Positions 36,392 to 38,954 of a stretch of 64,000 nt of DNA are shown in pieces. The position numbers and the translations under genes were made by a program. The stretch's first letter is position 1, and the number at the start of each line of letters is the position of its first letter. The notes below the pieces were generated by a model. It had not been told where the DNA came from and made no database searches. It saw nothing but the letters and a program-made list of their open reading frames with translations. Source of the DNA: Nitrospirota bacterium (GTDB taxonomy: Bacteria; Nitrospirota; Thermodesulfovibrionia; Thermodesulfovibrionales; SM23-35); contig JBFMCL010000016.1 in the NCBI GenBank assembly GCA_040754395.1, positions 1 to 64,000 on the forward strand, given 5' to 3'.

Positions 36392-36940
36392 TCAATGCCT
36401 CCCTATGAGAGTAATCCGCTTACCTCTCAAAAATTTTTTAAGGCTTGCCTCTCCCTTCTTTTTCCTGTATCTGTACTCTTCTTCATCCATAACAGTGCAG
36501 TCGATTTTTTGATCAAACCTTTTTTCAAGGTCTTTCAGTTCTTTCGCGAGTGATGACGATGCGCCGATAACAAATAAATCCACCGTCTCCACATCATCTT
36601 CCCCTTCTGCATATGGACCATAAAGGAAGGCGGCTTTTGCGCCGGAGGCCCTCAGGACAGCTTTTAAAGCTCCCGGCAGTCCGAGGGATTTTGTAATGAG
36701 GTTCTTGAGTTCGGAAAACAGGGGTGATTCCTTGTTTGCCTGGAAATACTTGAGGTTCACTATCTTTTCACTTGTTACGATACCCATCTTCTCGAGATTG
36801 TCGAGTTCCCGCTTGATGCCGGAAGGGTTTTTTCTGAGGAGCTTTGCTATTTCCCGGATGTAGAACTGCTCATCAGGGCTGTTCAGCAGCACGGAGAGAA
36901 CATCTGCTCTGATTGATGACGAGAATAAACTTTTCAGCAT
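36392..36940 (-). CDS. Winged-helix regulator with a degenerate nucleotidyltransferase-like domain
   Basis: The 182-residue protein has an N-terminal ArsR/MarR-like winged helix (about residues 5-70, FYIREIAKLLRKNPSGIKRELDNLEKMGIV). The C-terminal half resembles the MNT/MinNT nucleotidyltransferase fold: LYGPYAEGEDDVETVDLFVIG sits where GSxARGE-x-SDID-L occurs, but the canonical Gly-Ser and Asp pair are altered. It is therefore probably a regulator without transferase activity. This two-domain type is often found in transcription repressors of toxin-like or mobile loci. A strong promoter and tandem 21-bp repeats lie directly upstream, which suggests autoregulation. Confidence 0.7.
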   Translation of the reverse strand: MLKSLFSSSIRADVLSVLLNSPDEQFYIREIAKLLRKNPSGIKRELDNLEKMGIVTSEKIVNLKYFQANKESPLFSELKNLITKSLGLPGALKAVLRASGAKAAFLYGPYAEGEDDVETVDLFVIGASSSLAKELKDLEKRFDQKIDCTVMDEEEYRYRKKKGEASLKKFLRGKRITLIGRH

Positions 36941-37068: not shown

Positions 37069-37725
37069 TTATTGCGATATTGTCATCTTCCTGACCTTTG
37101 CCAGATTTATCAGATCATCGGCTTCATTCTTTTTCGGGGTCTCGAGAATCAGGGGGATGTTCCTGAATGCCCGTCTGTTGATAAACCGGCTCAGTGCGCT
37201 GATGCCAATGTTTCCGAGGCCGATATGCTCATGCCTGTCAACACCTGCGCCCGCCTCGCCCTTCGAGTCATTGAGATGAATAAGCTTCAGACTGTCCAAG
37301 CCGATATATTTTTCCATTTCACTCGATATCATGTCGGCCACGACTGTTTCCCTGATATCATAGCCGGCGGCAAACGCATGACAGGTATCCCAGCAAATGC
37401 CTGTATGAAGAATCACGTAATCCGCCCCGATCTTGTCAGCCCTTTCCATTTCGGTAACCAGCATCCCGACCGACTTCCTGCGCAAGGCTCCGTCCCGTGA
37501 CGCCAAATTGACAAGGTAGGAGGCGTGGATAAATACCGGGGAAATATCGCGTTCCGCCCTGAGGGACCGGAACCTGGAAGCCTCCCGATCAGACAGGATT
37601 TTCACATCCCATCCCCTGGGATTATGAGAAAAAATTTGCAGGGTATTGCATCCGAGGGCATGGGCCCTTTCAAGGCTCAGATGCAGCCCGCCGGCTATGG
37701 AGGTATGGACGCCAATCCTGCGCAT
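37069..37725 (-). CDS. nfo: Endonuclease IV with an internal deletion
   Basis: The product is 218 residues, while endonuclease IV is normally about 280. Both ends are clear: RRIGVHTSIAGG, HASYLVNLAS, WDTCHAFAAGYDI, HLNDSKGEAGAGVDRHEHIG and ILETPK. The reading frame passes directly from VILHTG to ICWDTCH, so about 60 residues are missing, including the LENTAGQG segment that carries one zinc-ligand Glu (E145 in E. coli Nfo). The remaining ligand positions are present. The frame is kept across the junction. The start at MRRIGVH has AAGGAG upstream. It follows the riboswitch-controlled antiporter by about 45 bp and may share its transcript. It may be inactive. Confidence 0.75.
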   Translation of the reverse strand: MRRIGVHTSIAGGLHLSLERAHALGCNTLQIFSHNPRGWDVKILSDREASRFRSLRAERDISPVFIHASYLVNLASRDGALRRKSVGMLVTEMERADKIGADYVILHTGICWDTCHAFAAGYDIRETVVADMISSEMEKYIGLDSLKLIHLNDSKGEAGAGVDRHEHIGLGNIGISALSRFINRRAFRNIPLILETPKKNEADDLINLAKVRKMTISQ

Positions 37726-37772: not shown

Positions 37773-38954
37773 CTATTCCTTTTCAAGCCACCGCTCCCCT
37801 GTGAGTTTCATGCCGATTGCTCCGAGGGGTGCAGTGAGAATTATGGAGAGAACAGAAACCGCAAGAATAACATCGCCGGACTTTATCCCCATTTCGAGCG
37901 GTACCGCGCCAATTGCTGCCTGAACTGTGGCTTTCGGGACATATGATATCACGCAGAAAAGACGCTCCCTGAAACTCATGTCGGTTCCCGTGACACTGAG
38001 ATAGGTCCCAATGCTTCTGCCTGCCAATGCAACGAGTATGAGCACTACACCTCCAAGCCCGGAATCCCAGGCAACCTGGATATTGACCTGGGCGCCGACG
38101 AGCACAAACAGGAGGATCTCCGCGAAAATCCATATCTTGGAGAGCTTGCGGGAAATCTTGTGGGCCTTCGCCTCTGCTTTTTCGAGGAGAATAAAACCGA
38201 TGGTCATAACACCTAACAGTGCAGACATCGATACCCTTGTTTTCAGTTCTTCTTCGAGCCACGTGAGAAGAACTGAAACAGCTACAACGACGATTGTCAT
38301 CTTTGTCGCCCTGAGCCTGTATTTGTCGAACAACCGGTAAAGTATATATCCCGCAATTGCGCCTGCCGCGATTCCGAGCAGAATGGACTCAGGTATCTCA
38401 AGCAACTTCATGCCGATATCCGTGCCGGCTCCGGAGTACATCCCGAGGAGTATTGAAAAGACCACGATAACAAAGACATCATCAACTGATGAGGCGCCAA
38501 GTATGAGGGTAGGAATCCCTTTTCGTACCCCTCTCTTTTTGTCAATCAGTTCTATCATATACGGGACAACCACTGCAGGGGAGACAGCAGCAAGGATGGA
38601 ACCCAGGATTGCAGCTTCGAAATAACTGATCCCGAGCAAAACCGGGGCAAGAAAAACAACAACAGCCCCCTCAAAAATGGCGGGGACACAGGACATAATG
38701 AGCGCGGTTCTGCCTACCCTGTTCAGGGTATCCTTCCTGAGTTCGAGCCCGGCCCGGAGGAGTATTACAATAAGAGCTACCATTCTGAGGTCAGCAGATA
38801 CTTTCAGAAGTTCCGGCTGCATGACATTGAAAATATGCGGACCGCAGAGTATCCCTATAATGAGCATGCCAAGCAGGCCCGGCAGTTTTGCCCTGGTCAG
38901 AAGATAATCAGCAATAAGGCCAAGGATAACAATCAGTGCGATACTGATAGCCAT
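37773..38954 (-). CDS. CPA-type cation:proton antiporter under fluoride riboswitch control
   Basis: The 393-residue membrane protein has about 11-12 hydrophobic segments and the Na+/H+ exchanger fold. Features include AAVSPAVVVPYM, the paired acid residues in GASSVDDVFVIVVF, and RSIGTYLS in a late helix. A GGAGGAGG site precedes the ATG. The 5' leader contains a fluoride riboswitch and terminator, so the protein is probably made when fluoride is high. Antiporters of this kind are known members of fluoride regulons, where they may relieve acid or ion load; direct fluoride export is not shown. Confidence 0.9.
   Translation of the reverse strand: MAISIALIVILGLIADYLLTRAKLPGLLGMLIIGILCGPHIFNVMQPELLKVSADLRMVALIVILLRAGLELRKDTLNRVGRTALIMSCVPAIFEGAVVVFLAPVLLGISYFEAAILGSILAAVSPAVVVPYMIELIDKKRGVRKGIPTLILGASSVDDVFVIVVFSILLGMYSGAGTDIGMKLLEIPESILLGIAAGAIAGYILYRLFDKYRLRATKMTIVVVAVSVLLTWLEEELKTRVSMSALLGVMTIGFILLEKAEAKAHKISRKLSKIWIFAEILLFVLVGAQVNIQVAWDSGLGGVVLILVALAGRSIGTYLSVTGTDMSFRERLFCVISYVPKATVQAAIGAVPLEMGIKSGDVILAVSVLSIILTAPLGAIGMKLTGERWLEKE

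Follow-up and report, generated by a model that had tools for sequence, protein, structure and literature searches.

The window, i.e., the whole analyzed stretch of 64,000 nucleotides, contains on its minus strand an nfo gene for deoxyribonuclease IV (endonuclease IV) from which an internal segment is missing, flanked by a conserved gene downstream and an antiporter-like gene upstream. The features referred to below are as follows.

37069-37725, minus strand: internally deleted nfo (deoxyribonuclease IV/endonuclease IV), 218 amino acids plus stop, TIGR00587 match of 4.2e-56 in two stretches.
36392-36940, minus strand: conserved neighbor downstream of nfo, 182 amino acids with a helix-turn-helix-like start and a weak cas_HTH match below the cut-off, marking the ancestral locus.
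37773-38954, minus strand: cation:proton antiporter-like gene upstream of nfo, its stop lying 47 bases ahead of the nfo start.
37390-37407, minus strand: deletion junction, codons H107-T108-G109 joined to I110-C111-W112, placed by the 27-relative alignment.
37525-37527, minus strand: retained metal ligand H67, H in 35/35 homologues.
37387-37389, minus strand: retained metal ligand D113, the fourth codon past the junction, D in 35/35 homologues.
37390-37392, minus strand: W112, adjoining ligand D113; W occurs in this gene only, the residue being I (20), L (5), or F (2) in the 27 full-length relatives.

The gene starts with an ATG codon at 37725. TIGR00587 (nfo, deoxyribonuclease IV) matches the 218-aa product with 190.2 bits (cut-off, 129.65); at this E-value a chance match is hardly an issue, and the protein can be assigned by descent to the Nfo family, the cut-off being exceeded. 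Four equivalog models (PRK01060) also match, below their cut-offs. The match falls into two stretches in 14 of the 15 solved sequences that match the protein, and in the two read residue by residue, the crystallized chain has about 55 (3aam) or 63 (2x7v) residues that are skipped where the 218-aa protein runs on. Together with the alignment to relatives, the family match supports the proposal of the first-pass annotation that an endonuclease IV with an internal loss is encoded here.

The downstream neighbor was found at 25 of 41 relatives' loci with 57-90% identity, the 41 loci including some duplicates and many short flanks; lpxC is present at 7 and the MTAP gene at 6 of them. No family model matches the neighbor above its cut-off, and no match to the antiporter gene was found in the available flanks of these loci. 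By its position the nfo gene is the ancestral (orthologous) copy in its place. In the same-family loci that contain it, the 182-aa neighbor is 81-90% identical, the nfo average being about 65%.

Relative to 23 of 27 full-length relatives from the same order, the gap amounts to 64 codons (192 bp), whereas the remaining four relatives have 63, 62, 59, and 55 residues at this position. This count omits loci L023 and L032, which have damaged genes, but includes L008 and L014, both interrupted by contig ends. The frame passes from VILHTG to ICWDTCH without interruption at about 37398/37399, the exact base being ambiguous by a few positions because a G codon is present on both sides. Thus, both the stop-free jump and the loss of some 60 internal residues that had been read from the letters alone were confirmed, with the place correct. 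The sequence across the junction is CATACAGGCATTTGC. On the left side of the gap the relatives mostly encode H-x-G-S, and on the right side relatives L007 and L020 have TCAGGCAT ahead of the next codons. Slippage between 3 to 5 bases common to both ends (GGC to CAGGC) may plausibly have produced the deletion. The change to W at codon 112 may predate or postdate the deletion.

Compared with a control model of the full-length relative L035, the deletion removed, in order, helix a4, strand b5 (bearing the metal-bridging Glu), helix a5, and a portion of strand b6. In the control these elements are a helix at 116-132, a strand at 139-143, a helix at 156-165, and the start of a strand at 171-177; the first three are absent from the model of the short protein, and a three-residue piece of the fourth is left. 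The eight-stranded TIM barrel is thus incomplete relative to the control model. The ENTAG-type motif lies within this block; its Glu and Asn are shared by 35/35 full-length homologues in an alignment of 35 of the best 80 of 217 loci. Active endonuclease IV has nine metal ligands, and eight of these are found here: H67, H107, D113, H116, H150, D163, H165, and E195 match 35/35 homologues, the ninth being the Glu of the deleted block. We take the lost residue to be E145 of Escherichia coli Nfo, and H67 and D113 to be its H69 and D179. The initial claims that one zinc-ligand Glu disappeared with the ENTAG-type block and that all other ligand motifs survive are therefore both upheld. In the Chlamydophila pneumoniae enzyme, two of the three metals are reported to be bound by Glu153 (PMC13113976); judging by how the ligands are ordered and spaced, the lost Glu probably corresponds to this residue.

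Mean pLDDT values from AlphaFold2 were 94.3 (short protein) and 94.4 (full-length control). The model of the 218-aa protein superimposes on endonuclease IV crystal structures, for example at 1.8 Å over 217 residues for 4hno and at 1.9 Å over 216 residues for 1qtw. Use of the confidence score as a folding test was rejected because the full-length control scores the same. In our reading, the model sets the retained parts in their native positions and says nothing on the folding of the short protein.

The source genome is 99.96% complete in 75 contigs. A second complete nfo, the presence of which had been named as a reason to abandon the initial reading, was looked for and not found: TIGR00587 at E 0.001 returned this gene only. 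Two other PF01261 genes, on contigs C8 (261 aa) and C11 (250 aa, below the cut-off), were not picked up by this search. The lost block has no copy elsewhere in the genome, where the only match was to the retained end of this same gene. Exonuclease III (xth) has no match in the genome, whereas Nth (above the cut-off) and a uracil-DNA glycosylase are present.

Among 61 genomes (the source genome and 60 relatives), 49 have an nfo match to a single-protein query, and 12 have none. A profile search likewise returned no match for 10 of these 12; G010 and G016 were not among the rows listed. Matches to xth exceeded the cut-off in seven genomes, with two more below it, and were distributed unevenly (5/12 nfo-negative vs. 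2/49 nfo-positive genomes), so that seven genomes have neither gene matched. These are G012, G016, G032, G039, G043, G048, and G052, G016 being only 73% complete. Across the phylum sample TIGR00587 matches 143 of 295 genomes, and no other internal gap of such size in one open frame was seen among the matches listed for these 143, as assessed visually from the length and the part of the profile covered. The same deletion was also absent from the best 80 of 217 loci in a scan of genome contigs, which may leave out the source genome's own records; every open frame there is at least 275 aa long. The search for the deletion in close relatives, suggested by the first-pass annotation, was thus negative among the matches listed and these 80 loci. 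Eight stretches of viral contigs matched a pattern, none of them encoding a relative of this protein. In the open-access literature searched, no such shortened form was found by title or abstract start.

A shorter Nfo in G034 was considered as the same case and rejected because its ENTA motif is kept, the protein being shorter through several small gaps. Four further genomes have damaged nfo genes: in G013 (L122) the first part is not matched and a stop lies inside, in G030 (L121) the C-terminus is truncated, in G227 (L119) the frame changes within a stretch containing 2 N, and in G232 (L120) it changes near a contig end. Some of this damage is perhaps due to sequencing faults. Since 12 of 61 genomes have no nfo match, seven of them also have no xth match, and four more genes are damaged, nfo looks repeatedly lost and dispensable in this order.

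The rest of the gene is well preserved. No changes were observed at the 47 columns invariant in the 27 relatives or at the 75 columns at least 90% conserved. When each relative was left out in turn, 17 of 27 were also unchanged at the otherwise invariant columns (1 to 6 changes in the rest) and 3 of 27 at the 90% columns (1 to 8 changes in the rest); therefore, this gene is as intact in these columns as its best-preserved full-length relatives. Assuming that constraint has ceased, the free amino-acid divergence since then is below approximately 4% per site (rule of three, 0/75). The unchanged conserved columns suggest that the deletion is recent. The terminal branch of this gene is 0.438, compared with 0.295 and 0.292 for its nearest relatives L017 and L013, yet it falls within the observed range (0.565 for L028 of the same family). 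A branch of this length is not simply explained either by full constraint or by a very young event.

We conclude that the locus most probably holds the orthologous Nitrospirota nfo with one clean 192-bp in-frame deletion, a recent loss-of-function allele. The protein, if made, would lack strand b5, helices a4 and a5, part of b6, and the Glu bridging two metals. The trinuclear site would very probably not be held and AP-endonuclease activity would be absent, in which case AP sites may be handled by other enzymes, e.g., through the AP lyase activity of Nth. Several observations count against this reading: the frame is kept, for which a random deletion has one chance in three; all other ligands and conserved residues survive, as in a still-working protein; the terminal branch is longer than those of the two nearest relatives; and the AlphaFold2 model lies confidently on the native fold, although by the control this confidence does not discriminate.

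An alternative is that most cells carry a full-length nfo and the assembly took a minority or chimeric path. The absence of changes at conserved positions outside the gap, the division of the assembly into 75 contigs, and the lack of a second genome of the same genus among the genomes listed would all agree with a strain variant or artefact of this kind. However, the junction contains no N and no break, and the deletion ends seem to share a few bases, probably too short a repeat for assembler collapse without supporting reads. As a weak control, the best family match is a single stretch, in some cases a partial one, for 17 of 20 other genes in the window; the three two-stretch matches belong to an outer-membrane efflux protein, an alpha-amylase, and an SLC12-like gene. 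We consider this alternative unlikely.

Another alternative is a shortened endonuclease IV that still works, as a mini-barrel or dimer, with a smaller and altered metal site. It would agree with the open frame, eight of nine ligands, all conserved residues kept, a confident model overlaying 4hno and 1qtw, the varying kind of metal within the family (PMC13113976), and the failure to find another nfo or xth in the genome, which could make the function necessary. It is nevertheless very improbable, given that the deletion took out an entire strand, two helices, and the metal-bridging Glu, that the form recurs in no other genome among the matches listed, that AlphaFold2 scores a full-length relative the same, and that 7 of 61 genomes match neither nfo nor xth. 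A functional miniature that has a reduced barrel, binds at most two metals, and does without the bridging Glu is hardly to be expected, and the support for any working short enzyme, which is unlikely, comes down to the uninterrupted reading frame, the ligands that remain, and the lack of change at conserved residues. Of the two outcomes proposed initially, an inactive protein is thus favored over a shortened enzyme whose metal site is altered, because a barrel strand and two helices are lost with the Glu, Glu153 is described as binding two metals, and no listed relative has this shortened form.

Read as a recent loss of function, the locus would represent plain gene loss caught early and one more data point for repeated nfo loss in the order. 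The seven genomes with neither nfo nor xth matched raise the question of how such bacteria cut AP sites.

In comparison with known endonuclease IV (TIGR00587, PF01261; PDB 1qtw, 2x7v, 3aam), residues 1-109 and 110-218 of the protein match the N- and C-terminal parts, respectively, and eight of the nine metal ligands are present, whereas 64 internal residues, comprising a strand, two helices, a part-strand, and the bridging Glu, are absent. With the damaged nfo genes of G013, G030, G227, and G232 it shares the restriction of the damage to a single genome each; their lesions, however, are end truncations, inner stops, and frame changes, whereas the lesion described here is an in-frame internal deletion.
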